DNA of 56,011 bases from a virus, in the IMG/VR virus record IMGVR_UViG_3300045911_000087, positions 1 to 56,011 of that record; one strand, given 5' to 3'. Below the pieces are notes generated by a model, which had not been told where the DNA came from, did no database searches, and was given only the letters and a program-made list of their open reading frames with translations. The position numbers and the translations under genes were made by a program. Shown here in pieces: positions 7,901-45,822 of the stretch; positions within the stretch are counted from its first letter, which is position 1; each line of letters opens with the position of its first letter.

Positions 7901-10132
7901 ATGTCAATTAAAGCACTGCAAGAGTACACATACGTCAGCAAATATGCCAGATTTAACGTCAATGAGAAGAGAAGAGAAACATACTACGAAGCCACTGATC
8001 GTGTAAGAAATATGCATCTTTTGAGGTTTCCTCAAGCCGAAGAGGAAATCATGGATGCGTTTGAAGTGGCCAAAATGAAGCGAGTTCTTGGCTCTCAACG
8101 GGCCTTGCAATTCGGCGGTACGCCAATATTGAAAAAGAATGCTCGTATTTACAATTGCATTGCATCTTATTGCGACCGCCCACGATTTTTTCAAGAATGC
8201 TTCTGGCTTCTTCTATGCGGGTGTGGCACTGGATTTTCTGTTCAAAAGCATCACATCGCCAAGCTGCCAGACTTCCACTCCATCAACTTGGGGAAGAAGA
8301 AGACGTTTGTAATCCCAGACACCATCGAAGGTTGGGCAGATGCGTTAGGCATTTTAGTTGCCAGTTATATGCCTCATCCAGAATTTGAGGAATGGGCTGG
8401 CTACGATGTTGAATTTGATTTTTCTGAAATCCGCCCAGCCGGTTCTATTTTGGCATCGGGTGTAGGTAAAGCTCCCGGTCCTGATCCTTTGCATCGCTCT
8501 CTCAAGGTCATTAAGAGCCTTTTTCAAGAGCGTATTGCCCTTGGATATGAACGCTTGCGCCCTATCGACGCTTATGACATTATCATGCACGCATCCGATG
8601 CTGTGCTGAGTGGTGGTGTACGTCGTTCAGCTACTTTGTGTATGTTTTCGTATGACGATGAAGAAATGGTCAATGCGAAAACGGGCAATTGGTTTACAGA
8701 AAATCCTCAACGTGCCAGATCGAATAATTCGGCTGTTTTGTTGCGGGATAAAGTCACAAAAGAAGAATTTTTTGCGCTCGTAGAAAAGAATAAGCAATTT
8801 GGCGAGCCGGGCTTTATCTGGGTGAGCGATCTTGAAGCTCTCTATAATCCCTGCGTAGAAATTGGTCTATATGCTTATGACGATGAGGGAAATTCTGGAT
8901 GGCAAGCGTGCAATCTCTGCGAAATTAACGGGAAGAAAATCAAAACCAAAGAAGATTTCGCCCTAGCAGCAGTTGCAGCAGCCAGAATTGGCACATTGCA
9001 GGCGTCTTATACAGATTTGGCGTATCTTGGGCCTATTTCCAAGAAGATTATCGAAAAGGAAGCTCTGTTGGGCGTCTCCATCACGGGCATGATGGATAAT
9101 CCCGACGTTCTTTTTGATCCTCAAATTCAAAAAGAAATGGCGGAACTCATTGTCAAAACCAATCGAGAATTCGCCAAGAAAATCGGCATCAATCCTGCCG
9201 CTCGCTGCACATGCGTAAAACCCGCAGGCACAACGAGTTGCGTTCTCGGTACGGCTTCGGGTATTCACCCGCATCACGCCAAGAGATATTTCCGCCGTAT
9301 TCAAGGGAATTGGATGGAACAACCGCTCCAATATTTCAAACAATTTAATCCCTTGGCTGTCGAAAAATCCGTCTGGTCGGCCAACGGTACAGATGAAGTT
9401 ATTTCTTTCTGCGTGGAAGTTCCGAAAGGTGCTAAAACGAAGAATGAGCTTTCTGCCGTCACGTTGCTCGAACACGTTCTGTTGACACAACAGAATTGGG
9501 TGACTTATGGCAAAACTCCCGAATTGTGTTCTAAGCCGTGGCTTACACACAATGTTTCTAATACGATCAATATTCGTCCAGAAGAATGGGATGATGTTGC
9601 GAATTTCATTTACGAAAATCGTGAATATTTTGCGGGCATTGCTTTGCTCCCACAATCTGGTGATTTGGATTATCCGCAAGCCCCAATGTGTACTGTTTAT
9701 AACTCCCGTGAAATCGTACAGCAGTACGGGGAAGGCAGTTTATTTGCCAGTGGTTTAATTGTGGATGGCCTCAGAGCGTATAACGACAATCTTTGGGCTG
9801 CATGTGATGGCGTTCTCGGTCTTGGCGAACCTCTTGTGGAACCCACAAAGCCAGATGATGAAAAAGATTATCCGGCATATGTTGATGCGTTGCAGCTTTT
9901 CCGCTCCAAGATTGATTGGGTGCGTAGAGCGAAGCAATTTGCAGACAGATATTTTGAGGGCGATTATCGAAAGATGACGTATTGCTTGAAGTGCGTCCAC
10001 AATTGGAAGTTGTGGCAAGATTTGACTCGTGAGTACGTCGATGTTGATTTCAGCAAGATGTTTGAAGACGAAGACAACACCAAAGTACAAGAAACAATCG
10101 CTTGTGCGGGTGGAGTTTGCTCTCTAGTTTAA
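7901..10132 (+). CDS. nrdJ: Adenosylcobalamin-dependent (class II) ribonucleoside-triphosphate reductase
   Basis: A 743-residue monomeric class II ribonucleotide reductase, EC 1.17.4.2, converting NTPs to dNTPs with a B12-generated radical. The Cys86 N-C motif and Cys337 correspond to the active-site redox pair. N-P-C-V-E at 316-320 supplies the thiyl Cys318 and the catalytic Glu320. KPAGTTSCVLG and a Gly-rich GSILASGVGKAPG segment are typical. The C-terminus ends C-A-G-G-V-C-S-L-V, giving Cys735 and Cys740 with the same spacing as the swinging-arm pair of the Lactobacillus leichmannii enzyme. No NrdA/NrdB pair is present, so dNTP synthesis would need host cobalamin but not oxygen. Confidence 0.93.
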   Translation: MSIKALQEYTYVSKYARFNVNEKRRETYYEATDRVRNMHLLRFPQAEEEIMDAFEVAKMKRVLGSQRALQFGGTPILKKNARIYNCIASYCDRPRFFQECFWLLLCGCGTGFSVQKHHIAKLPDFHSINLGKKKTFVIPDTIEGWADALGILVASYMPHPEFEEWAGYDVEFDFSEIRPAGSILASGVGKAPGPDPLHRSLKVIKSLFQERIALGYERLRPIDAYDIIMHASDAVLSGGVRRSATLCMFSYDDEEMVNAKTGNWFTENPQRARSNNSAVLLRDKVTKEEFFALVEKNKQFGEPGFIWVSDLEALYNPCVEIGLYAYDDEGNSGWQACNLCEINGKKIKTKEDFALAAVAAARIGTLQASYTDLAYLGPISKKIIEKEALLGVSITGMMDNPDVLFDPQIQKEMAELIVKTNREFAKKIGINPAARCTCVKPAGTTSCVLGTASGIHPHHAKRYFRRIQGNWMEQPLQYFKQFNPLAVEKSVWSANGTDEVISFCVEVPKGAKTKNELSAVTLLEHVLLTQQNWVTYGKTPELCSKPWLTHNVSNTINIRPEEWDDVANFIYENREYFAGIALLPQSGDLDYPQAPMCTVYNSREIVQQYGEGSLFASGLIVDGLRAYNDNLWAACDGVLGLGEPLVEPTKPDDEKDYPAYVDALQLFRSKIDWVRRAKQFADRYFEGDYRKMTYCLKCVHNWKLWQDLTREYVDVDFSKMFEDEDNTKVQETIACAGGVCSLV

Positions 10133-18377: not shown

Positions 18378-18470
18378 TCATTCAATCAACTTTTTTCCAT
18401 CCCATTTCAAAATTTCCCCCTCGGCCTGCCGAATAGAGGTAATTTTCTTGCCTTCAATGTAGGCTTTTAC
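18378..18470 (-). pseudogene. 3' fragment of a gene interrupted by IS copy 1
   Basis: In the minus direction an open frame emerges from the left end of the IS and encodes a tail beginning VKAYIEGKKITSIRQAE and ending in KKLIE, then a TGA stop 13 nt before the next minus-strand start at 18365. It is probably the C-terminus of the gene whose N-terminus lies beyond the IS (21005-21164). The two remnants are out of frame if simply joined at the inferred IS ends, so some sequence was probably lost. Confidence 0.45.
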
Positions 18471-18694
18471 GTGGTTTGCGGCGAGAAAGCCCCTACTTTC
18501 CGAAGGAAAGTTTGGTCGCAAAGCGAGCGACCGTAGGGAGCGAGACTGCGACCAAACCTCTTTAGGGTAGTGGGATGAATCGCCGCCATAGGACTAATTC
18601 AGGACAAAATAGGACTGCTGCTAATTCCAATTTGGCTGAAGCTGGACAAATATCACACCCCAAAAATCAGATAACAACGCCACTAAAGCGGCTA
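18471..18694. other. Structured left end of IS copy 1 (no gene)
   Basis: Nested and adjacent stems are visible. GCGGCG (18478-18483) can pair with CGCCGC (18581-18586). ACTTTCC (18495-18501) pairs with GGAAAGT (18505-18511). TTTGGTCGCA (18511-18520) is a perfect inverted repeat of TGCGACCAAA (18547-18556). The block CTCTTTAGGGTAGTGGGATG is identical in copy 2. These folds presumably are the single-strand structures recognised by TnpA. No ORF is seen here. Confidence 0.6.
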
Positions 18695-19108
18695 TCAGCC
18701 CTGTTCTTCGATGTACTTCTTGATTGTCTCTGTGGATACATCGCCAGTTGAACAAGCAAAATATCCATCTGACCAGAACGTATGTTATTTCCAGAAGTGC
18801 CTCGACAAGAATACGGGAAACCTCTGCCAGATGCGGCTCGTGGACATACTTTTCAGCCGATTCACGATACTACTCACCGAGATGTTCGGCGGGTAATCCA
18901 CAAGCAGGTGGACATGGTTGCTATCTTCTGACTCCATGACTTCGATTTTGAAGTCCGACTCGTTGGATATGTCAAAGAGAATTTGTTTCATGTCATCGTT
19001 GACCTTGTTCACCAGTATCTTCTTCCGATACTTGGTCACAAAGATGACGTGGCATTTCAAGAGGAACTTGCAGTGCGAATTGCTTTTGTACTTCTTTTTC
19101 TTTTTCAT
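18695..19108 (-). pseudogene. tnpA: IS200-like transposase tnpA (Y1 HUH), nonsense mutation
   Basis: The start at 19108 (MKKKKKYKSNSHCKF) matches copy 2. The HUH metal motif H-V-H-L-L-V is intact. A TAA at 18785-18787 follows F-W-K, where copy 2 has a GAA codon. In the same frame after the stop the conserved W-S-D-G-Y-F-A-C-S-T-G-D-V-S and the catalytic-tyrosine helix T-I-K-K-Y-I-E-E-Q continue to a TGA at 18695-18697. The protein therefore lacks its catalytic Tyr and should be inactive unless the stop is read through. Confidence 0.85.
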
Positions 19109-19121
19109 CGAATTTTTCTCG

Positions 19122-19156
19122 TTGAAAAATAACGGCAAGAACACTATATTATAGTG
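19122..19156 (+). promoter_or_regulatory. Promoter plus palindromic operator for IS passenger genes
   Basis: TTGAAA (19122-19127), a 17-nt spacer and TATATT (19145-19150). The 15-bp palindrome CACTATATTATAGTG (19142-19156) covers the -10 box and reaches the start codon of the ribbon-helix-helix-like gene, which suggests autoregulation by that protein. It lies between the divergent tnpA remnant and the passengers. Confidence 0.5.
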
Positions 19157-19339
19157 ATGGCAAAAAGTAAAGAGAAAACCGAGCGGCAAGTGATCTTCAT
19201 GGTACAGCCGTCTTTATATGACCAATTCTCCGAAGCGTGCGAGGAGAACTACAAGAAAGTCTCGGAAACCCTTCGTGACCTGATGCTGGAATACGTCAAG
19301 AAACAGGAGAGCAAGAATGAACGAACAGACAATGCCTAA
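19157..19339 (+). CDS. Small ribbon-helix-helix-like protein carried by IS copy 1
   Basis: A 60-residue protein beginning MAKSKEKTERQ; a GTG at 19154 is an alternative start. A strand-like segment R-Q-V-I-F-M-V, then two helices spanning PSLYDQFSEACEENY and VSETLRDLMLEYVKK, fit a CopG/Arc ribbon-helix-helix DNA-binding fold. It lies between tnpA and tnpB, is absent from copy 2, and sits behind a palindrome that overlaps its promoter. It may repress its own operon or the transposon genes. The fold is inferred from pattern only. Confidence 0.55.
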   Translation: MAKSKEKTERQVIFMVQPSLYDQFSEACEENYKKVSETLRDLMLEYVKKQESKNERTDNA

Positions 19340-19752
19340 ATTGAACCTCATCAAGAAGGAAATAGACAAGAGCGAGGAATACGGTGTGCCAATGAAGGAA
19401 ACTCGGTGGTTCGTAGAAACCAACGATGACTTTGATGGCACTGCCAACGGTCACGGCTATAAGACGCCGCAAGCGGTCTACAAGGCGTATTACTACTTTC
19501 TAAACAAAAACAAGTTTGCCAAACAGAAGCAAGATATTAAGCAGTGGTTGGTTGAAGGATAATCCTGACGTAAAGGCAGCGTTGAACAACTACTTCGACG
19601 CAGATTGGGCTATAGATCGTGCCAAAGATGGCGAACCAACTTCCATCGAGAACATGCTAGAACACATGGCAGAAGACCGACCGGAAGTTGCCAAGAAGTT
19701 AAATGATAACAAAAATCTGTGGAAAACGTTGATGAAGTATTACTTGGACTAA
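19317..19752 (+). pseudogene. Frameshifted passenger ORF in IS copy 1
   Basis: Two overlapping frames look like one protein. The first (19317-19562) runs MNEQTMPKLN to QWLVEG and stops. The next frame continues DNPDVKAALNNYFDADW to KYYLD at 19752. Removing one G in the run at 19557-19558 joins them as V-E-D-N-P-D into a protein of about 145 residues. This is either a simple frameshift mutation or a recoding site; nothing slippery is obvious. The family was not recognised. The AGGAG site upstream and the overlap with the preceding gene indicate that it was once translated. Confidence 0.55.
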
Positions 19753-19754
19753 AT

Positions 19755-20999
19755 ATGAAGCATCTGTACTCCTACAAGTTTCGGCTGTCTCCAACACCAC
19801 AGCAAGAAGTGTTGCTCGCCAAGCACTTCGGCTGTGTGCGTTGGATATACAATCATTTTCTTGACAAAAGGATTGAGGAATACAAGACTAACAAGAAGAC
19901 GCTTCGTAGATCAGACAACGAAAAGGAACTACCTGAAATCAAGACGACTTGTATCTGGCTCAAAGAAGTCGGCAGTCAGTCTTTGCAGTATGCGGTTGAA
20001 TGCTTGCAGAATGCGTATAACAACTTCTTCCGCAGAGTGAAAGAAAAGAAAAAAGGCAAGAAGGGCTTTCCTCAGTTTAAGCGAAAGCACGACAAACAGT
20101 CTTTCCGCATTAAACAGAACATCTACTTAGTTAATGGCAAGCTGGTGTTTCCTAAGTTTCTTGAAGGTATACCAATCATTCAGCACCGTGAGGTTGAAGG
20201 CGATATACAGTTTGCAACAATCAGCAAGAACAAAGCAGGACAGTATCATGTATCCATCACGGTTGAACGAGATATACAGCCGCTACCAGTAAGTAATCGA
20301 AGTGTTGGCGTGGACTTGAACGTGACAGCGATGGTAGATAGCAATAGTGTATCACATAAAAATCCACGACCAGCGAAAGAACACCGGCAACGATTGAAGC
20401 TATTGCACCAGAGAGTCACCAGAAGAAAAAAGAACAAAAGTAATGGATTAACGAAAGCAAAGAAAGCGTTAGCAAAGTTGTACCTCAAGGCACATAATAA
20501 GCGTGAAGATTTCCTGCACAAATTGAGTCGTCGGATAGTTGATGAAAACCAAATCATCTGTCTGGAAGACCTTGATGTGGCATCCATGCTTGCAAAGACC
20601 AAACCAGATGACCGAGAAGAACCACGATGGAAGGAGAAGAGAAGACACAGGGACATTCAGGACTGTGGTTTCTATTCTTTTGTCCAGAAATTGAGCTACA
20701 AGGCGGTCTGGCATGGTCGGCAGTTGGTGAAGGTATCACGATGGTTTCCATCGTCGCAACTATGCAGTCATTGTGGTTGGCGATATAAAGATTTGCCGAA
20801 GGATTGCAAGGAGTGGTGTTGTTGGAATTGTTGGGAAACGAACCAGCGTGATTATAACTCAGCCAAGAACATTTTAGTTGAGGGGATGAGAATACTAACC
20901 TCTGGAACAGAGGGGATAGCCGTTTGTCTTGGCGTAAGACCTGCTCAGAGTGGGCTGCTGATTGGAACGGAAGCCCCGCCGTCTTTAGCGGCGGGGTAG
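19755..20999 (+). CDS. tnpB: TnpB RNA-guided nuclease, copy 1
   Basis: The start at 19755 (MKHLYSYKFRLSPT) matches copy 2; an upstream GTG in frame is ignored. 414 residues. The RuvC catalytic residues are present: Asp187 (VGVDLN), Glu271 (CLEDLD) and Asp366 (RDYNSAKN). The zinc finger is C-S-H-C...C-W-N-C. TnpB cleaves DNA matching a guide carried on a transposon-end RNA and preserves the element after excision. Compared with copy 2, the usual stop after G-V-R-P-A is lost and translation runs 16 residues on into the right-end hairpin. Confidence 0.93.
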   Translation: MKHLYSYKFRLSPTPQQEVLLAKHFGCVRWIYNHFLDKRIEEYKTNKKTLRRSDNEKELPEIKTTCIWLKEVGSQSLQYAVECLQNAYNNFFRRVKEKKKGKKGFPQFKRKHDKQSFRIKQNIYLVNGKLVFPKFLEGIPIIQHREVEGDIQFATISKNKAGQYHVSITVERDIQPLPVSNRSVGVDLNVTAMVDSNSVSHKNPRPAKEHRQRLKLLHQRVTRRKKNKSNGLTKAKKALAKLYLKAHNKREDFLHKLSRRIVDENQIICLEDLDVASMLAKTKPDDREEPRWKEKRRHRDIQDCGFYSFVQKLSYKAVWHGRQLVKVSRWFPSSQLCSHCGWRYKDLPKDCKEWCCWNCWETNQRDYNSAKNILVEGMRILTSGTEGIAVCLGVRPAQSGLLIGTEAPPSLAAG

Positions 21000-21024
21000 T
21001 TCACATTTCTCACACTGGACCGTT
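20890..21024 (+). ncRNA. Predicted omega RNA (reRNA) of TnpB copy 1
   Basis: By analogy with characterised TnpB systems, the RNA overlaps the tnpB 3' end and right end and carries a guide from the flank. The terminal hairpin CCCCGCCG (20974-20981), loop, CGGCGGGG (20989-20996) is identical in copy 2, followed by TAGTTCAC to 21004. The guide would start at 21005 with ATTTCTCACACTGG. The 5' boundary is a guess. Confidence 0.5.
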
Positions 21025-21164
21025 CGAGAATTCGGCACCGCTGATGGGCCGTATTTGGTGGGCATACAGGCAAAAATCATATTGCCTGCGTCTGCTTCTT
21101 TGTTGATTTCCTCTTGAGAGGCGACCTTTATATCGACGCCACCGATGTTGATTGTTTCGTCCAT
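21005..21164 (-). pseudogene. 5' fragment of small protein gene interrupted by IS copy 1
   Basis: The start at 21164 (MDETINIGGVDIKV) overlaps the upstream stop codon (TAATG) and has GGAGG in front. About 53 residues remain before the IS. The sequence MIFACMPTKYGPSAVPN then S-R-T-V-Q-C-E-K looks like the beginning of a small zinc-ribbon protein. The last cysteine of the apparent C-E-K-C comes partly from IS sequence. The matching 3' remnant is at 18378-18470. It was translationally coupled to the ART-HD gene. Confidence 0.6.
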
Positions 21165-22309
21165 TAAATCCTCCAAAGGAATTTCTTCCCGGCCTCAGTA
21201 GAGAGATATTTCGGGTCAGGAGTGATGCCTACTCGTGGCAAGTCCAGACGGTCAGCATCCCAACATACACCAATCGTCGGGTCGTTGCTAGTCTGGCCAT
21301 CGTTGTGGTACTTGCAAGCCTCTACCAATTTGTTTAATTGATCCCGATTGATCTTGAGTCGCCCTTCCTCGAATAGTTCTTCTGCCCATTTAGCAGAGCG
21401 ATGCCCGTGTTCGGGGTCTTCATCTTCGTTTTGCCGCTTGCTATCGTGGACCAGAGCAAACAGTTGGGCCACGGTCTTGTCGGCCCCCGGTGTGTTGTTC
21501 GCCAAGAACACTGCATTCTTTTCTACCTTCTCCCAATGCCAAAGTCCATGAAAACTTCCCGCCCGAACCAAAGAAAATCGGGACCACGCCTCTTTCAACA
21601 CCGATTCCATCCAACCGGGTCGCTTTGCAACCTTCTGGCAGGGTTCGATTTTGAGACGGCTGGGCAGGGTGACGATTTCGTACTCCCCTCGCCCAAGAAG
21701 GACGCCGATAATGTCCTTTTTGTTGACAATGGCTTGTACGACGCCGTTCTTTTTGTGATCGAATCGTTGAGCGAACCAACGGGCACGCCAATAACTGAGC
21801 GTCCAGCTATACCCGCTTCGATTGATTCCCTGATGGCCTCGATAAATGATGAATTCTTCCGGCAAGCCCTCAAGGAACTTCCGTTCTTCATCATTCATAA
21901 AGTGTTCTTTATCGCCACGGCTGCTCAATAGAAGCATGGCGACGATATGCTTGTATTGCCAGATATTTTCGCTATCTGACCAGATGCTTCCCAAATTGTC
22001 CCAATAATCCTTGTCGGACATTAGGTTTTCAATTTCGACAAACTTCTGGAAGCGATAGGGACGTTCGTGGATGTAGAGATAACTACTCCATTTCTGCTCT
22101 TCCATCGCTTTGGCAGCATATTCTTTCTTGGCTTTTAGTTGAGCGTTATACATGGCATTCATTGCTTCCATGTATGGGACGCCGAATACAAGTGGGTGCT
22201 TGAGAGTAGGCCAACCAAGCGCACCCCGACCCTTCTCAAGCCAAGGCTTGAGTTCCGGGTCAAGGGCTTCTTGACGTTTCAGGACTTCTTCAAAAGATTC
22301 GATATTCAT
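21164..22309 (-). CDS. ADP-ribosyltransferase-like domain fused to HD phosphohydrolase
   Basis: A 381-residue protein. Residues 1-140 are helical and unassigned. Then FIIYRGHQG, GYSWTLSYWRARWFAQRF and GRGEYEIVTLPS supply the R, S-x-x-S and E-x-E elements expected of an R-S-E type ADP-ribosyltransferase. The C-terminal domain, GSFHGLWHWEKV...ALVHDSKR...HGHRSA...WDADRLDL, is a clear HD metal-dependent phosphohydrolase with H, HD, H and D ligands. One half could modify a target with ADP-ribose while the other hydrolyses a phosphorylated nucleotide or signal. The fusion is unfamiliar to me. It overlaps both neighbours in the minus-strand operon. Confidence 0.7.
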   Translation of the reverse strand: MNIESFEEVLKRQEALDPELKPWLEKGRGALGWPTLKHPLVFGVPYMEAMNAMYNAQLKAKKEYAAKAMEEQKWSSYLYIHERPYRFQKFVEIENLMSDKDYWDNLGSIWSDSENIWQYKHIVAMLLLSSRGDKEHFMNDEERKFLEGLPEEFIIYRGHQGINRSGYSWTLSYWRARWFAQRFDHKKNGVVQAIVNKKDIIGVLLGRGEYEIVTLPSRLKIEPCQKVAKRPGWMESVLKEAWSRFSLVRAGSFHGLWHWEKVEKNAVFLANNTPGADKTVAQLFALVHDSKRQNEDEDPEHGHRSAKWAEELFEEGRLKINRDQLNKLVEACKYHNDGQTSNDPTIGVCWDADRLDLPRVGITPDPKYLSTEAGKKFLWRI

Positions 22310-23639
22310 TGGAATGAAGGATATTCTCGTAGGAATCAGGAGGGCAAATGAGAATGAAATTCTCTTCGGCCTCTGTGACCGCCTCGATTTGTTGGATTGT
22401 ATTGAGAACTTTTACTTTCTGCACAATTCCTACCGTACCGGCTGGTACTTCGTCAGCGTTGATAACTTTGATTTTCGTGCCGACCCTCGGTCCAATATTT
22501 TGTGGTTTTCTTGCTGCATGGGCAGTATAAGTGACGCTCGTATTTTTTACGTCACCGAAGAATGCGCCAGCACGAACCATTACGGGTTTGCGGAAAATGA
22601 TCTTTCGCTCCCGAAGGCCCGGTCCATAGGGCTGGTTGGCAAAATGCCCCCGCCGCCAGTGGGAACGTGGCGATTTCTTGAGCAAATCCATTTCTACAGC
22701 TTCGCCTTCGGGTACATTCTCCACGACTTCATCATAAAACTCGACCTTTTGATCGAATTTCAAAAGATTGACAGAGGCGGCAAGGTTTGCTTGTGCTTCC
22801 ATCGCCCGCCGTGTTGGAATATTGCCACGACGCTTAGCCCGTGCTTCCTGTTGCCATTGTTTATACTTTTGTGGATCGAGTGGCCCATAATCCTTGACGG
22901 AATACAGGCTCATCATCATGGCGAAATTCACACCAAGCCTCTGTACGTTTTCAGCAGCATTGCATTCGGCATCAGCCAAATTCACTAACCCCTCGTTGCG
23001 ATTGGGCCGGTTGCCGATGATGGCATCTTCAATAGTTTTAAATTCTTCTCGCCGGGGTGTGACGTGAGTAATCACGTTACTTCGGTTGAAGAAGGCACTG
23101 ACGTTGATGAATTTCTTTTGATCGTCATGATGTACCAAAACAAATTTTGGTGTATCAGGAATGTTGTATTCCTGTTTGAGAGTGTTCCCGTATTCTGGTG
23201 GGATTTCCAGAATAATGACGGGATATGGTTGCTTGTAATCATCAAATGAATACGAAGCAGACGAATGCTGCAATGCCTCACATTGCTCTGGAAGCGGGCG
23301 AAATAGCTTCGGCCCACCAGCCAAAGATTTGCTGAGGGTGTAATACCAAAAAGTCCCGATAGGGTCTATTTGGAGTACATCGAGAATTTTGTTAAATTGC
23401 CGCCAGAATTCAGGGGGATGGCTTTTGAATTCTTTCTCCCCCACGACAATGACGGGTTCATCGGGGTGCTTGGCCTTATATGCATCGGCTTCGCCGTGCT
23501 TTGGGACAAGCATGAATTTAACAGGCCGTACTGAAATGGCCCGGCGTTCCGAGAGTGCTTTGTAAACAATCCACTCTTTTCTGCCGAGCCATGTCAGTAC
23601 GGGAATATTCTCTTTGTGATCCAAGAACGTGAAGTCCAT
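22290..23639 (-). CDS. Unknown protein in AAA-VWA cassette
   Basis: About 449 residues from the ATG at 23639 (MDFTFLDHKEN); GGGAG precedes it, and a GTG 6 nt upstream is an alternative start. Residues 1-200 show alternating strands. The later segment SHWRRGHFANQPYGPG then IIFRKPVMVRAGAFFG is a pattern found in several uncharacterised phage and plasmid proteins. A beta-barrel-like C-terminus follows (VGTKIKVINADEV...AGTVGIV). No enzyme family was identified. It lies between the VWA protein (9 nt upstream stop to start) and the ART-HD protein (20-nt overlap), so it is probably a component of the same system. Confidence 0.6.
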   Translation of the reverse strand: MDFTFLDHKENIPVLTWLGRKEWIVYKALSERRAISVRPVKFMLVPKHGEADAYKAKHPDEPVIVVGEKEFKSHPPEFWRQFNKILDVLQIDPIGTFWYYTLSKSLAGGPKLFRPLPEQCEALQHSSASYSFDDYKQPYPVIILEIPPEYGNTLKQEYNIPDTPKFVLVHHDDQKKFINVSAFFNRSNVITHVTPRREEFKTIEDAIIGNRPNRNEGLVNLADAECNAAENVQRLGVNFAMMMSLYSVKDYGPLDPQKYKQWQQEARAKRRGNIPTRRAMEAQANLAASVNLLKFDQKVEFYDEVVENVPEGEAVEMDLLKKSPRSHWRRGHFANQPYGPGLRERKIIFRKPVMVRAGAFFGDVKNTSVTYTAHAARKPQNIGPRVGTKIKVINADEVPAGTVGIVQKVKVLNTIQQIEAVTEAEENFILICPPDSYENILHSNEYRIF

Positions 23640-23653
23640 GACCACTCCCGTAT

Positions 23654-25051
23654 TTATTCGTAATCTTCAAGGCGGAAGAAATTGCAATCTTTGTCGATAT
23701 AGTTTTTGGTTCCGCCCTGAGTAATAAACCAATACCATTTCGACGGGTCTTGCGGACGAATCGAATCACCGTATCCGTCAGTAATCACAAATACCGCTTC
23801 GGGATATTTGCAGTTTTCCTGATTCATGACGGCCTGAACATGCTTCTCCAAGATGGAAAAGCTAGTGCCACCACCACCATAAATTTTCTTGGACGCCAAG
23901 GTGGTTTCCTTGACGACCGTATCGAAGCAGAACAGGCGAACATCGAATCGTTCCGTGGGAAGACTCTCGGCGGCGGTGAAAAACCGATCCTTGAGTCCCC
24001 AACATGAACCCGAAGTATCAAGGAAGAAAAACACCTTGATCTTTTTCTTTTCATTTTCATGTTCTTCGACTTCCATATCGGAAGGTAAGAACATATCACG
24101 AGGCAGGAACGTCAACCGGCGCTGGACTCGTGCCCATTGCTCAATATCCTTGTCTTTTTCAACAAGATATTTGCTCGCCCATTTCTTGATGACGGTTTCC
24201 CACTTCTTTTTCTTTACGACCTTGCCGATTTTGGCAAAGACCCACTGACCACCAGTGCCGGTTCCGGCCTGCTGGTTTTTTGCATCCTTGGGCGGATTCT
24301 GAAAATGCTTGTCCACCATCGACTTGAGGGGTTTCTTTTCATCCTCAGTCAATTCCTTGGACAAATTGTCAATGACTTTGCCCCAAGCGTCGGACTGTTC
24401 CTCGCCCATCATCGAGTGATCGTCAAGCGAACCACCCGGTTGACCGGGGCCAGCTTCCCCGTCACCGGGTCCACCATCGCCGTACATCTTCTCGAATAGG
24501 TTGTAGTAATGCTCGAACATTTCGTCGTCTTTGGGCATGGGTTTCTTGTCCTTAAAGACAGTATCCACCCAGCAAAGACCGCCGTTAGCCTCTTGTTCCG
24601 GTCCCCACGGCTTGCCCTCGTCAATAGCCATTTGTTTGAAAATGGGCTTGATAACATCGTCAATTTTCTTCCGGTCGAAGCCAAAGCCCCGCACCAGATT
24701 ATGATTGACAACAATATCCAAAGCAGAATTGGCTGCACGCCGATTGATACCGGCATCACGAATACGGATGCCGTGATTCAAAATAACGTGCAGTGCTTCG
24801 TGGCAAATTACGAATAACTTGCCATTAAAGTCCAAACGCTGCCAGAATGTCGGATTGAAGTGGAAGTAAACAAATTCCCCCACTTCATCAAACTGTACAG
24901 CAGCGGTGGGCAAATCCTCGTTGAATACGGGCTTGCCCATCTGCCATAGCTTGTAGAAGACTGCGTGGTGCCCTTCAAGGGCCATCGAAATCTCCAACCA
25001 TTCATCGTTGGTGATTCGAGGCAGGGCCATAGTTTTCATGAAGTCGGCCAT
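23654..25051 (-). CDS. VWA-like protein with HExxH metallopeptidase-type domain (DUF2201-like)
   Basis: A 465-residue protein. The N-terminal domain contains CHEALHVILNHG, an HExxH zincin motif, within a region typical of DUF2201 putative metallopeptidases. A Gly/Pro/Asp-rich linker follows at about 200-260. The C-terminal domain has FFLDTSGSC, a MIDAS D-x-S-x-S of a von Willebrand A domain, and VFVITDGYGD. Such proteins typically pair with a MoxR-type AAA ATPase encoded alongside, as here. CobT-like VWA proteins of cobaltochelatase are an alternative relative. The start is supported by GAGGAA upstream. Confidence 0.8.
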   Translation of the reverse strand: MADFMKTMALPRITNDEWLEISMALEGHHAVFYKLWQMGKPVFNEDLPTAAVQFDEVGEFVYFHFNPTFWQRLDFNGKLFVICHEALHVILNHGIRIRDAGINRRAANSALDIVVNHNLVRGFGFDRKKIDDVIKPIFKQMAIDEGKPWGPEQEANGGLCWVDTVFKDKKPMPKDDEMFEHYYNLFEKMYGDGGPGDGEAGPGQPGGSLDDHSMMGEEQSDAWGKVIDNLSKELTEDEKKPLKSMVDKHFQNPPKDAKNQQAGTGTGGQWVFAKIGKVVKKKKWETVIKKWASKYLVEKDKDIEQWARVQRRLTFLPRDMFLPSDMEVEEHENEKKKIKVFFFLDTSGSCWGLKDRFFTAAESLPTERFDVRLFCFDTVVKETTLASKKIYGGGGTSFSILEKHVQAVMNQENCKYPEAVFVITDGYGDSIRPQDPSKWYWFITQGGTKNYIDKDCNFFRLEDYE

Positions 25052-25058
25052 TGTTTCC

Positions 25059-26651
25059 TCACTTGGGTTGCACGAGTTTGTGGCTCAAGCCAGCCTCATT
25101 CAGCTTAGTCATAAGGGCCACAAATCGCCCACCGTGCCGACTCAGAATCATCGACCAGTTGTGGCCGGTGTTCCGATGGATTTCCTTGATGCAGTGGTTG
25201 ACCACGCCCGGCAGCTTGGCAAACGGCGGGCTTGTCAACGATGCGGGCCACATCTTGCCCACCGATGCACTAAGCACTTCCAGAGCATTCAATGCTTGGT
25301 CTGCCGTCATGTCTTTCGGAAGGCTCTTCTCGATCTTCTCATACGCCGACTGTTGCAGTTGCGGAGTATTGGCATCCAATCGGCGTAGTTGCGTCAGGAT
25401 GCCGGTGAATGCCGCTGCGGACTCGCCAGTGTAGTGTGCTTCTGCTACTTCACTGTCGCCGCCGCTGCTTTTGGTGGCGAAGGCACGAGCCAACTCTTGG
25501 TTCTGTTGAAGAACTTTGCGAATTTCTCGTCCCGTTTTCTGGTCGGTGCCAGCCTTGAGAATTTCGTCACAAACATTCATGAATACCGGAATTTTGTCCG
25601 AATTCGTGATGATATGCTTGCGAATTTTGGCATTATCCGCCATCGAGGAAGCAATCTTTTCCTTCGAGATAAGCGGCAGGAAGAAATTCATCAGAGTATC
25701 CGACTCTGGAATGAACTTCATCGCTGCGGCGAAGTTATTCTCGTTGGAAAGGAATGTCCGTGCCCCGGCAACGTCGTTGGCTTCCATCAATTCCGAAAGC
25801 CGGTCGGAAGTCGGCCCGGTATTGAGGGCGTTCGCCAACTTGCTGACGCCAGCCTCATGCGGAATAACATCCCGAATATCTCCGTGTAATTGGAACATAT
25901 TCAGGGCGTATTCGAGACGCCGGGGCGAGACGACATTCTGCATTTCGGGGGTCAATTCCTTCCACCAACCGATGGCGGAATCGGCCAAGCGACGACCAAA
26001 TTTCTGCCGGAACCACTCGGTATTCGGCAAATAAGGGATGGTCGTAATAACGTGGTAGCGGTCCTGCTGAGCAGGGTCCAACTTTTCCACGTCGTAGGTT
26101 TCATCTTCGTCGTCGTCGGGGTTGATCGCCGCCCAAACGATCTTGAGATTCGGGAATTTCTCGCCGTTGATGGATTTGAATTGCAGCAATTCCATCACGG
26201 CATTGCGAACCTTCTTCGGGCTACGGTTGAATTCGTCAAAGAATAACGCTTCGACTTCGCCAGTGGCAAAGGTGCGAGGACGAACCAACTCAAGATAGTT
26301 GAATTGACGACGGTTTTCGACGCTCTGCACTACCTTTTGAGCAGATTCGCCTTTCAGGTGCCAATTCTTTTCGATCCATTCCAAAGCAAGGGATTGGTCG
26401 ATGTTGATAAGTTCACGAATAACTTCAAACTGGTCGGAGCCGAATTTGCCTTCGGACTTTTCCTTGGGGACACCAACGAAGTCAACCCAAGGGTCCATTG
26501 TGGACGCCGAGAAATACCGCCAGTTTAAGTTGTGTTCATCGAAGGCTTGCTTGACCATAGCGGTCTTGCCGACGCCGTGCTTGCCGATAAACAACACGTT
26601 GAGGTTGTTCTTGATCCAAAAACCCAGCTTATTCTGAATGTTGACGGCCAT
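25059..26651 (-). CDS. MoxR-type AAA+ ATPase
   Basis: A 530-residue protein. Walker A is FIGKHGVGKTAM (residues 21-32) and Walker B is ALFFDEFNRSP, followed by the sensor region WAAINPDDDEDETY and the DPAQQDRYHV arginine-finger region, all in MoxR/CobS-like order. The C-terminal 250 residues are helical. It presumably remodels a substrate together with the VWA protein encoded 7 nt downstream. It is the first gene of the minus-strand cassette and has its own promoter at 26693-26721. GC content is visibly higher than in the tail genes. Confidence 0.85.
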   Translation of the reverse strand: MAVNIQNKLGFWIKNNLNVLFIGKHGVGKTAMVKQAFDEHNLNWRYFSASTMDPWVDFVGVPKEKSEGKFGSDQFEVIRELINIDQSLALEWIEKNWHLKGESAQKVVQSVENRRQFNYLELVRPRTFATGEVEALFFDEFNRSPKKVRNAVMELLQFKSINGEKFPNLKIVWAAINPDDDEDETYDVEKLDPAQQDRYHVITTIPYLPNTEWFRQKFGRRLADSAIGWWKELTPEMQNVVSPRRLEYALNMFQLHGDIRDVIPHEAGVSKLANALNTGPTSDRLSELMEANDVAGARTFLSNENNFAAAMKFIPESDTLMNFFLPLISKEKIASSMADNAKIRKHIITNSDKIPVFMNVCDEILKAGTDQKTGREIRKVLQQNQELARAFATKSSGGDSEVAEAHYTGESAAAFTGILTQLRRLDANTPQLQQSAYEKIEKSLPKDMTADQALNALEVLSASVGKMWPASLTSPPFAKLPGVVNHCIKEIHRNTGHNWSMILSRHGGRFVALMTKLNEAGLSHKLVQPK

Positions 26652-26692
26652 CAGTCCGCTCCGAATTGCGATGAGGGAGTTAGTCTGCTGCG

Positions 26693-26721
26693 ATTATACC
26701 ACAGTTTTGTTATGTGGTAAA
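26693..26721 (-). promoter_or_regulatory. Promoter with embedded operator for AAA-VWA operon
   Basis: On the minus strand: TTTACC, a 17-nt spacer and TATAAT (plus-strand 26693-26698), ending about 40 nt before the AAA start codon. A perfect inverted repeat TACCACA (26697-26703) and TGTGGTA (26713-26719) fills the space between the boxes, a typical repressor site. The ParB-like gene promoter at 28115-28142 is strongly similar. Confidence 0.65.
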
Positions 26722-26778
26722 GCAGTTTTGCTTGCTACGCTACATATACGGAAAAGTTCTTCGCACTCCCAGATAAAA

Positions 26779-26810
26779 AAATAGCCCGGTGAATATTCAC
26801 CGGGCTATTT
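26779..26810 (-). terminator. Strong bidirectional intrinsic terminator
   Basis: A 32-nt perfect palindrome whose arms read AAATAGCCCGGTGAAT and its complement. In the minus direction it is followed by a run of T after the ParB-like gene (ends 26828). It separates that gene from the AAA operon promoter. Confidence 0.85.
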
Positions 26811-26827
26811 TCGCCGGATATTCGGGA

Positions 26828-28063
26828 CTACGACTTCTTCGGCATTTCCCAGCCGGGCAACCACTGGAAAATATCCTCGTCCCGTTCATAGAGTTTGTCG
26901 ATCTTTTTGTCCGTCATGAGGGCGTTGATGGCCCCCAAGGTTTTACGGTACGACAATCCCTGTGCGTTAATGCGTTGGGCACGCATTCGCTGCAAACTCA
27001 CGAACAGGGCACGGGCCGGATCGCCGTCATCGCTGAACTTGATTTCACGGAGCCGTTCACAGAACGGTTCGATCTTCTCGGCACCGTACCACATATACGC
27101 CTTGGCGACAGCGGCTTGCACTTCCGCCCGGCCTTGTGGCAGATGAGTGTGAATCCAGTCGATGACGTGTTCCCACTTGTGGGCGAATGCCGCCACTTCG
27201 GATTCGGTGTATCGAACCTGCTTGCTGCTCAATCCCTTCATCAGCGCCCGACAGAAACCGGCAATGCGATTGCTTGCCAATTTCGAGTCCACAATCAGCT
27301 TCAAACGGTCGCTGAGTGGACGGACACGCCCGGAGTCGATGACGAATCGTGCCGTAGTCAGCACGTTAAAGGTGAAGTAAAGCGGGATTTCGATCTGCCC
27401 GCCTTCTTCCCAGATTTCTTTGATTGCCGTCAGCCGGTGACGACCGTTGTAGACCTTGTTCTGGTAGTCCACACCGATTGCTTCGTCGGTGGGAATCCAC
27501 GAACCATTGAGCATGTCCCGTTTGTACTTCTCAACAGTTGAACGGTCAAGACGACGATTGCCTTCGTCTTCCAGCCAAATGTTGTCGAGACAGGTCTTTG
27601 CCATTGGCCCCGTCAGCATAATGTACTCGCTATACTGATTCTGGTTGCGGGGGAAAGCGAACCACGGCTTGTCTTTGCCGTTGCAGGCAAACAGGTAGTA
27701 TTCCTGATTCGTCTTGGCCTGCTTGCAGATTTCCTTGTGACGACGCTGCTCTTCCGATACAATCTCGTCGGTGATCTTGCCAACAGGACTGGTCGGAGCG
27801 GGCTTGTGCTGTGGCTGTTGCTGATTTGCAACACCCGGCAATGGCTTATCAGGAGAGACAGGCTGAACCTGCGGTTTCTCTTCGTGCAAGAAGCGATGCT
27901 TCTGCAAGACCATATCCGCAACACTGGTGCGGCCAACGCCGCCAAAGAGGGGTTGATTCACTGGACCTAGACCTCCTGCGAGTTGTGACTTGCGCATCTG
28001 TTCGGCTTGCTGTTCCTTCGCACGCTTCTCGTTCTGACGCCGGATACGTCGCTTAGAACCCAT
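26828..28063 (-). CDS. ParB/sulfiredoxin-fold domain protein
   Basis: A 411-residue protein. The first 100 residues are basic, then Gln/Pro-rich and disordered. The middle shows LDRSTVEKYKRDMLNGSW followed by VYNGRHRLTAIKE, the equivalent of the D-G-x-H-R-x-x-A motif of ParB/Srx-like domains. In ParB proteins this fold binds CTP; in phage relatives the activity is unknown. The C-terminal half is helical. It has its own promoter and terminator, upstream of the AAA-VWA operon, and the two promoters share a motif. Whether it is part of that system or a regulator is open. Confidence 0.65.
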   Translation of the reverse strand: MGSKRRIRRQNEKRAKEQQAEQMRKSQLAGGLGPVNQPLFGGVGRTSVADMVLQKHRFLHEEKPQVQPVSPDKPLPGVANQQQPQHKPAPTSPVGKITDEIVSEEQRRHKEICKQAKTNQEYYLFACNGKDKPWFAFPRNQNQYSEYIMLTGPMAKTCLDNIWLEDEGNRRLDRSTVEKYKRDMLNGSWIPTDEAIGVDYQNKVYNGRHRLTAIKEIWEEGGQIEIPLYFTFNVLTTARFVIDSGRVRPLSDRLKLIVDSKLASNRIAGFCRALMKGLSSKQVRYTESEVAAFAHKWEHVIDWIHTHLPQGRAEVQAAVAKAYMWYGAEKIEPFCERLREIKFSDDGDPARALFVSLQRMRAQRINAQGLSYRKTLGAINALMTDKKIDKLYERDEDIFQWLPGWEMPKKS

Positions 28064-28114: not shown

Positions 28115-28142
28115 ATTCTACCACAGATTTGTCGGTTGTAAA
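28115..28142 (-). promoter_or_regulatory. Promoter of ParB-like gene, similar to AAA operon promoter
   Basis: On the minus strand: TTTACA (plus-strand TGTAAA at 28137-28142), a 16-nt spacer and TAGAAT (28115-28120). TACCACAG at 28119-28126 is the same half-site as in the AAA operon promoter, and the neighbouring bases also align. Confidence 0.6.
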
Positions 28143-28162: not shown

Positions 28163-28202
28163 AAAAAAACCGCAAGTCTTAGAAAACTAAGGACTTGCGG
28201 TT
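28163..28202 (-). terminator. Intrinsic terminator of the baseplate gene group
   Basis: AACCGCAAGTC (28168-28178) pairs with GACTTGCGGTT (28192-28202), extended by TTAG/CTAA around an AAAA loop. In the minus direction a run of seven T follows. It lies 40 nt past the stop of the gene at 28243-28650. Confidence 0.8.
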
Positions 28203-44667: not shown

Positions 44668-45822
44668 ATGGTCGATTACACTTACAAGTTTAGGCTCTAC
44701 CCAACAAAGGAACAGGAAACGAAACTCGCCAAACATTTTGGTTGTGTTAGGTTCGTTTACAATCATTTCCTTGATCGTCGGGTGAAGTTCTACCTTGAAG
44801 CCAAAGAACAAGACCTTGAAAAGAAATCGCTGAACTATAATGACGACGCCAGAGAACTAACCTCAATCAAGAAAGAAATCACTTGGCTGAAGGAAGTCAA
44901 TTCGCAATCCTTGCAACACGCACTGAAACACTTGGAGTCTGGCTTCAATCGCTTCTACAAGAAACTGGCTAAGTTTCCACGTTTCAAGAACAGGCGAACC
45001 AAGCAAAGTTTTCGTGTCCCGCAGCATGTTCGAGTTGAAGACAATAAACTTTACATCGTCAAATTCAGAGAAGGCATCAAGGTCAAACTACATCGACCGA
45101 TTGAGGGAAGCATCTGCAACGCCACAATCAGCAAGAACAAGGCTGGTCAATACTTTGTGTGTATAGGAGTGCAACGACATATTGAGAAACATGAACCTAA
45201 TGAAAACCAAGTTGGGGTCGATCTCGGAATCAAAACACTTGTTACATGCTCAGATGGCAGAAGTTTCCCAAATATCAAACCATATCGCACACTTGAGAAG
45301 AAGCGACGTATCCTTGCCAAAGCCTTGTCTCGGACAGTAAAAGGCAGCAATGGTAGGGAGAAAGCACGTCGCAAACTTGCTCGATTGGACTTGAAGATTA
45401 CCAACATCAGAAACAATCACTTGCATAAGGTCAGCCACAAACTCGTTAGTGAGAACCAAACTATCGTGATGGAAGACTTGAACGTGAAAGGTATGTTGAG
45501 CAATCGCAAGTTATCCAAGAGTATTTGGGACTGTTCTTTGTATGAGTTGGTTCGCCAGATAAAATACAAGTGCGAGTGGTATGGTCGAGAGTTTTTGCAG
45601 GTCAGCCGATGGTTTCCATCGAGTAAGACTTGTGGAAGTTGTGGTTACGTCAATGATGGTTTGACGTTAGCTGATAGAGAATGGGTTTGTCCAAGATGTT
45701 CTGTAAAGCATGATCGAGATATGAATGCAGCAAAGAACATCTTGCGACAAGGACTCAATCAAGAAAATAGAACCGTAGGAACTACGGAGATAGCCGATTG
45801 TCTTGGTGTAAGACCTGCTTGA
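44668..45822 (+). CDS. tnpB: TnpB RNA-guided nuclease, copy 2
   Basis: A 384-residue, full-length TnpB. RuvC residues: Asp185 (VGVDLG), Glu269 (VMEDLN) and Asp351 (RDMNAAKN). Zinc finger C-G-S-C...C-P-R-C. The N-terminal helix-turn-helix and wedge-like region begins YKFRLYPTKEQETKLAKHFG. It is clearly related to but substantially diverged from copy 1, so the two elements are not a recent duplication. It should use the right-end RNA and the flank at 45878 as guide. Divergent from the tnpA remnant, 53 nt apart. Confidence 0.95.
   Translation: MVDYTYKFRLYPTKEQETKLAKHFGCVRFVYNHFLDRRVKFYLEAKEQDLEKKSLNYNDDARELTSIKKEITWLKEVNSQSLQHALKHLESGFNRFYKKLAKFPRFKNRRTKQSFRVPQHVRVEDNKLYIVKFREGIKVKLHRPIEGSICNATISKNKAGQYFVCIGVQRHIEKHEPNENQVGVDLGIKTLVTCSDGRSFPNIKPYRTLEKKRRILAKALSRTVKGSNGREKARRKLARLDLKITNIRNNHLHKVSHKLVSENQTIVMEDLNVKGMLSNRKLSKSIWDCSLYELVRQIKYKCEWYGREFLQVSRWFPSSKTCGSCGYVNDGLTLADREWVCPRCSVKHDRDMNAAKNILRQGLNQENRTVGTTEIADCLGVRPA

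Follow-up and report, generated by a model that had tools for sequence, protein, structure and literature searches.

Among the closest described systems is a protein pair of the group 2.2 jumbo phages, a MoxR AAA+ ATPase and a metallopeptidase-vWA protein, reported by Iyer et al. in 2021 (PMC7824862). The passages of that paper on the pair propose a role in virion assembly, citing Acidianus two-tailed virus, and do not treat promoters. We analyzed a pair of this kind in the IMG/VR virus record IMGVR_UViG_3300045911_000087, whose whole 56,011-nucleotide stretch is called the window here. Like the pair in those passages, it consists of an ATPase and a VWA protein with an N-terminal metallopeptidase, and it belongs to a large myophage. 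Unlike the pair as described there, it sits in a five-gene block with a ParB-like gene, a gene for an unknown protein (UNK) and a fusion of an ADP-ribosyltransferase-like (ART) domain to an HD domain (ART-HD), and it has its own non-virion promoters. We find that the pair is an inherited core locus of large phages, to which the other genes were added in layers.

An open reading frame (ORF) check agreed with an earlier sequence-only reading that the five genes are intact and all on the minus strand. They are the ParB-like gene (PARB, 26828-28063, 411 amino acids), the MoxR-type AAA+ ATPase gene (AAA, 25059-26651, 530 amino acids), the gene for a zincin-like HExxH metallopeptidase with a VWA domain (VWA, 23654-25051, 465 amino acids), UNK (22290-23645, 451 amino acids) and ART-HD (21164-22309, 381 amino acids). 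In the open-licence literature, the parts of a viral NAD+/ADP-ribose survey (PMC9503650) and of a 2026 jumbo-phage review (PMC13282480) that matched our search terms do not mention the block or the ART-HD fusion. The extended block, the fusion and the promoter evidence are additions that were not found in the open-licence literature searched.

An inherited pair and its accessory genes

Eighty loci with AAA relatives were retrieved and annotated by profile and by tblastn. Across contigs of up to 595 kb the genes follow one order: baseplate hub, g28659, (PARB), AAA, VWA, (UNK and ART-HD), (PARBc) and RusA, where parentheses mark genes that come and go and PARBc is a paralogue of the C-terminal part of PARB at the far end of the block. 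About 40 large-phage loci keep the order baseplate hub, g28659, AAA, VWA and RusA, and do so even where identity is 36-45%. The 595-kb uncultured phage LR756511.1 uses the same slot for PARB-AAA-VWA-PARBc, without UNK or ART-HD, at 35-44% identity to the window (41-44% for the AAA-VWA pair). Syntenic tail genes lie on one side of it, RusA and CTP synthase on the other.

A tree of AAA and VWA, made with a quick method and rooted at its midpoint, places the syntenic set in one clade with a Shimodaira-Hasegawa-like approximate likelihood ratio test (SH-aLRT) support of 98. This clade includes three loci of other contexts, and long-branched relatives from other gene contexts fall outside it. A second group of large phages (L086, L090 and L093-L121) has the pair away from the tail genes of this locus. 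AAA and VWA share a locus in 76 of 79 loci, and two of the remaining three loci stop at a contig edge. The two genes are divergent in L101-L104, L107, L110, L111 and L116 and co-directional elsewhere. An alternative genetic code was considered for relatives in which VWA was apparently missing and was rejected; tblastn found open VWA frames there. The identity of the parts and the age of the locus are firm: AAA-VWA is an inherited core locus of large phages and not a recent import.

PARB and PARBc, and then UNK and ART-HD, are accessory layers at one site. The pair is often found without the other block genes. Where those are present they keep the same order (L016/L039/L050, L018-L021, L038/L051 and L041/L052); in the window's relatives, UNK and ART-HD follow VWA and precede PARBc. 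PARB, conserved in 15 phage loci, and PARBc occur together in 8 scorable loci; PARB alone was seen in 1, PARBc alone in 0 and neither in 25 (P = 5e-7). On the AAA-VWA tree PARB changed at least 7 times and ART-HD, with UNK, at least 3 times. L043 (4534-9425) has PARB, ART-HD and UNK, with the order swapped, and PARBc, and lacks AAA-VWA; L105 has UNK without ART-HD. Because of these two loci, the block genes can work apart while using one slot. The set that the sequence-only reading took as a unit thus recurs in other phages in the same order, and it is separable.

The reading had also described the block as richer in guanine and cytosine (GC) than its surroundings, and it is: GC is 0.47-0.54 in the block genes and 0.42 in the flanking genes of the same phage. 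PARB is above its flanks in 15 of 15 phages, by a mean of 0.10 overall and 0.18 at the third codon position, and this holds at phage GC from 35% to 55%. AAA is above its flanks in 29 of 33 phages. The third-position rise of AAA and VWA is 0.12 where PARB is present versus 0.04 where it is not (P = 1.5e-4). Because the offset is constant and tracks each phage genome's own GC, it reflects the genes themselves or the way they are expressed and is not the signature of a foreign donor.

Promoters of the block and their regulon

Two promoters on the minus strand serve the block. The PARB promoter is at 28115-28142 (TTTACAACCGACAAATCTGTGGTAGAAT; TTTACAA..CTGTGGTAGAAT; matrix score 25), and the promoter of the AAA-VWA-UNK-ARTHD unit is at 26693-26721 (TTTACCACATAACAAAACTGTGGTATAAT; TTTACC..CTGTGGTATAAT; matrix score 21). 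The scores come from a position-weight matrix for which only promoters of related phages that lie outside the block were used, with a threshold of 15 or more. None of the other window genes tested scored 15 with this cross-phage matrix. Overall, simple consensus scans of the region for promoters and terminators did no better than chance, and it is the matrix that carries the promoter claim. The T4-type late promoter TATAAATA was also tried as a candidate and rejected, its match count being no higher than chance.

Two intrinsic terminators on the minus strand were read directly. One, after PARB at 26775-26809, is a perfect 30-base palindrome followed by a T run; the other, at 28163-28202, lies between the upstream tail-side genes and PARB. 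No terminator is visible 3' of ART-HD in the window, where an IS200/IS605-type element interrupts the following gene.

The promoter class has the consensus TTTACAAcc-N-CGTGGTAnnAT, and relatives keep it ahead of both PARB and AAA. A relative of 532 kb (G002, the contig of L041, 532,729 bases) has 62 sites and 0 for the reversed pattern; relatives of 223 kb and 117 kb have about 10 and 8 sites versus 3 and 2 reversed. Scores of 15 or more were found upstream of 10 of 15 PARB, 12 of 35 AAA, 6 of 35 VWA and 3 of 8 ART-HD genes. None of the about 166 flanking-gene upstreams reached that score (0 of 32 for the baseplate hub, 0 of 33 for g28659, 0 of 31 for RusA and 0 of 36 for two further core genes), and 2.4% of random 300-base windows, block included, did. 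In phages without PARB, the extended -10 element is enriched upstream of AAA relative to controls (P = 7e-4), with a minority reaching threshold.

Elsewhere the same class serves nicotinamide phosphoribosyltransferase, three aminoacyl-tRNA synthetases and glutathionylspermidine synthase. It also precedes a Ro60-type VWA protein, ParB_N-type proteins and runs of small unknown ORFs. The class thus defines a regulon that takes in NAD salvage and tRNA synthetases as well as numerous small unknown genes. The sequence-only reading had found near-identical promoters and strong terminators, which hold up, and had called the promoters host-type; they instead belong to the phage's own regulon. These promoter sequences, the chief addition of this analysis, strongly suggest that the block, which sits in a tail cluster, is nevertheless wired to a metabolic, early-like regulon. 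The promoter sequence and the co-regulated genes also point to early expression of the block.

Predicted activities and proposed role of the pair

AAA carries a Walker A motif (GKHGVGKT), a Walker B motif (ALFFDEFNR) and an SPRR arginine motif, and matches phrog_1297 (E 9.4e-19) and, by profile, PDB 2r44 (E 2e-4). The VWA protein has an HExxH-x4-H zincin-like motif and a complete metal ion-dependent adhesion site (MIDAS), DxSxS..T..D. Pfam DUF2201_N matches it at E 2.8e-6 (27.6 bits against a gathering cut-off of 23.2), and the VWA half by itself is under the Pfam cut-off (12.7 against 26.4). It also matches phrog_1314 (E 1.1e-33), whose label, "HNH endonuclease", is contradicted by the motifs. 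HExxH and the outer H are kept in 73 of 73 relatives and the MIDAS DxSxS in 72 of 72; the Walker and arginine motifs are near invariant in about 75 AAA relatives. Because these motifs are practically invariant, the pair is probably an active ATPase and metallopeptidase.

PARB has an N-terminal ParB/Srx-like segment with a GRHRLTA motif and a helical C-terminal part. It matches phrog_5931 (E 9.6e-25) and, weakly, the ParB-like phrog_1033 (E 0.015). Pfam ParB_N gave no match at E <= 1, and because the ParB matches are weak the name is kept as "ParB-like". UNK is about 50% identical within the block of relatives and has an invariant SPRSHWRRGHF motif near its C terminus. A weak hint about its C-terminal region comes from DUF4314, which was matched (E 0.0028) by two unspecified members of the set that was scanned. 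AlphaFold modelling of UNK from 6 sequences failed, with a predicted local distance difference test score (pLDDT) of 36.

The ART-HD fusion has an ART-like R-S-ExE part at about residues 1-225, which corresponds to phrog_4776, and an HD hydrolase part at about 245-381. R157, S168, E209 and E211 do not vary among 34 phage relatives. In an AlphaFold2 model (pLDDT 86.5) the motif residues fall at the expected strands, predicted at 152-159, 168-170 and 211-214. Annotated phage ARTs were matched only at E about 0.5. The HD part matches PDB 2pq7 by profile (E 2.8e-4) and by Foldseek (E 3.3e-4, probability 1.0), and its metal-site residues (H..HD..D) are conserved in most homologues; this sequence and model evidence confirms the predicted HD identity. 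An HD domain was found in 0 of 68 other ART loci examined, so that among these loci the HD fusion is confined to the window's clade. The domain labels of the sequence-only reading therefore stand for MoxR AAA, HExxH-VWA and HD, with ParB resting on weak matches and ART on motifs.

ART-like domains also occur inside open frames of 2216 amino acids (L197) and 1035 amino acids (L161), which are possibly large multidomain injected or virion proteins. In Mycobacterium phage Aegeus (L026) a stand-alone ART-like gene borders a large array of tRNA genes.

Based on these results we are led to suspect, with about an even chance of being right, that AAA-VWA is an early-type remodelling protease directed at host or other non-virion proteins, with ART-HD as an accessory enzyme. 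The AAA+ protein, a hexamer if it follows its family, would use ATP to remodel protein targets. The metal-binding MIDAS of the VWA domain would link it to the zincin metallopeptidase, which shares a polypeptide with that domain and would cut what the AAA+ ring remodels. The pair would be made early or in mid-infection, and its targets would be host or other non-virion proteins. At this locus a subset of phages seems to have gained a ParB-like protein, driven by a promoter of its own, and a closing paralogue, and then UNK and ART-HD. The ExE motif suggests that ART-HD most likely catalyzes NAD+-dependent ADP-ribosylation of an arginine in a protein, and its HD domain would hydrolyse a phosphate or nucleotide. 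UNK, seen only beside the block set, may be an adaptor. The promoter class is the reason for favouring a host-directed role, and in this it sides with the sequence-only reading.

Several observations weigh against this. The position and strand of the block inside the tail and baseplate cluster favour virion assembly, as does the Acidianus two-tailed virus precedent given in the passages of PMC7824862. In several phages without PARB, AAA follows the tail-side gene by 50-60 nucleotides, and read-through is possible. In the 223-kb relative the pattern search gave no more than about 10 sites. The ART label comes from motifs, with no significant ART match from Pfam, PDB profiles or Foldseek; hhalign alignments to T4 ModA and ModB paired the expected motifs but were not significant.

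The best-surviving alternative, which we take seriously though it is less likely, is the proposal in those passages: AAA-VWA would be a virion-assembly chaperone-protease that helps tail and baseplate proteins to fold or assemble, or trims them, and the other genes would be passengers. It draws on the place of the pair, which in about 40 loci immediately follows the baseplate hub gene and g28659 in a conserved orientation, together with the archaeal virus precedent cited there and the short gaps that permit read-through in some phages. However, it is weakened because the promoters match those of metabolic genes and not those of the surrounding tail genes: the pair has its own promoter of the non-virion class, which was all but missing ahead of the tail and baseplate neighbours tested. 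A terminator also divides the units in the window, and the second large-phage group has the pair apart from these tail genes.

The sequence-only reading proposed a self-contained module acquired by transfer, that is, a recent cassette (moron) that would serve host takeover, anti-defence or superinfection exclusion. This is improbable. It would account for the own promoters and terminators, the raised GC and the repeated changes of PARB and UNK-ARTHD on the tree, and a new defence-type function is conceivable, as a PADLOC defence-system search of the block gave nothing better than E 0.006. Against it, the block uses one slot in all relatives, with deep divergence and conserved flanks in distant huge phages; its promoter class is phage-wide; its GC offset follows each phage's GC; and no UNK relatives were found in 85k prokaryote genomes. 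The marks of a moron, an own promoter and terminator with sporadic occurrence, are seen for PARB and UNK-ARTHD and not for the core pair. For AAA-VWA the idea is already largely refuted.

More doubtful still is a specific scheme in which ART-HD would mark host proteins, with ADP-ribose as a degradation signal, and the MoxR/metallopeptidase-VWA pair with UNK as adaptor would extract and cut them. A CobS/CobT-type cobaltochelatase pair serving the phage's class II ribonucleotide reductase (RNR) is scarcely credible: the window does encode a B12-type RNR and CobS is likewise a MoxR-type AAA+, but no CobS/CobT model of Pfam or NCBIfam matched at E <= 1, the phage CobS family phrog_249 scored E 0.12 versus 9.4e-19 for phrog_1297, and the partner is an HExxH metallopeptidase of the DUF2201 family.

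This analysis gives the poorly understood AAA+/protease pair of huge phages a regulatory setting that can be tested. If early-type expression and host targets are true, the published virion-assembly view would need revising. The ART-HD fusion and the repeated build-up of genes at one locus are candidates for host reprogramming by huge phages.

The window's neighbourhood and related systems

The block lies in the T4-type tail region of a large myophage, with sheath, tube, gp15-like, baseplate hub and sigma factor genes. Further off in the window are SbcCD, CTP synthase and the class II (B12-type) RNR gene (7901-10132; phrog_367, E 2.2e-96). A second tnpB gene in the window, at 44668-45822, is intact.

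The far end of the block is destroyed by the IS200/IS605-type element, which lies at 18500-21010. A sixth gene of the second transcription unit (20985-21176, minus strand) survives as its start only; its start codon overlaps the ART-HD stop, and the insertion element cuts it. It encodes 63 amino acids in the window, of which 59 match a 107-amino-acid frame at 97% in the near-identical contig IMGVR_UViG_3300044998_000182 (L003). PARBc, which closes the block in relatives, survives as its last codons alone, a minus-strand remnant at 18378-18480 (tblastn E 6e-4; frame AYIEGKKITSIRQAEGEILKWDGKKLIE). The element has a tnpA-like frame on the minus strand, from 18785 to about 19110, with an internal stop, and a tnpB on the plus strand at 19719-20999. 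The junction of the element and the sixth gene differs by about 105 bases between the window and L003, and therefore the element moved or flanking DNA was deleted.

In L003 a 10-base insertion resembling a tandem duplication (window position about 27622) disrupts the ParB-like gene, and a 17-base insertion of similar kind (about 22695) disrupts UNK; AAA, VWA and ART-HD are open. Loss of PARB and UNK may go together. In L022 there are several in-frame stops in AAA, VWA, UNK and ART-HD, and this block is decayed or poorly assembled.

Relatives of the pair also occur in smaller phages. COG3864-COG0714 (DUF2201 and MoxR) pairs are found in, for example, Alteromonas phage AD45-P1, where AAA and VWA are adjacent. 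Homologues of the VWA protein are found in phage LL12 (profile E 1.5e-16) and AD45 (4.4e-8), and rV5-like vequintaviruses have a metallopeptidase-VWA protein. These homologues are about 23% identical and have other gene contexts, with no ParB-like gene, UNK or ART-HD detected. Public labels such as "HNH endonuclease" or "anti-sigma factor" are at odds with the motifs.

The two halves of ART-HD have separate counterparts. Stand-alone phrog_4776 proteins of mycobacteriophages, Gordonia phages and many viral contigs are homologous to the ART half and share its R-S-ExE, without an HD domain in the 68 loci examined. T4 ModA and ModB are phage ADP-ribosyltransferases that modify host proteins. They have the same motif order as ART-HD (YRG, S-rich, ExE), with no significant similarity and no HD domain. 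The HD hydrolases 2pq7, 2o08 and 2ogi resemble the C-terminal half in fold and metal-site motif, and are stand-alone bacterial enzymes.

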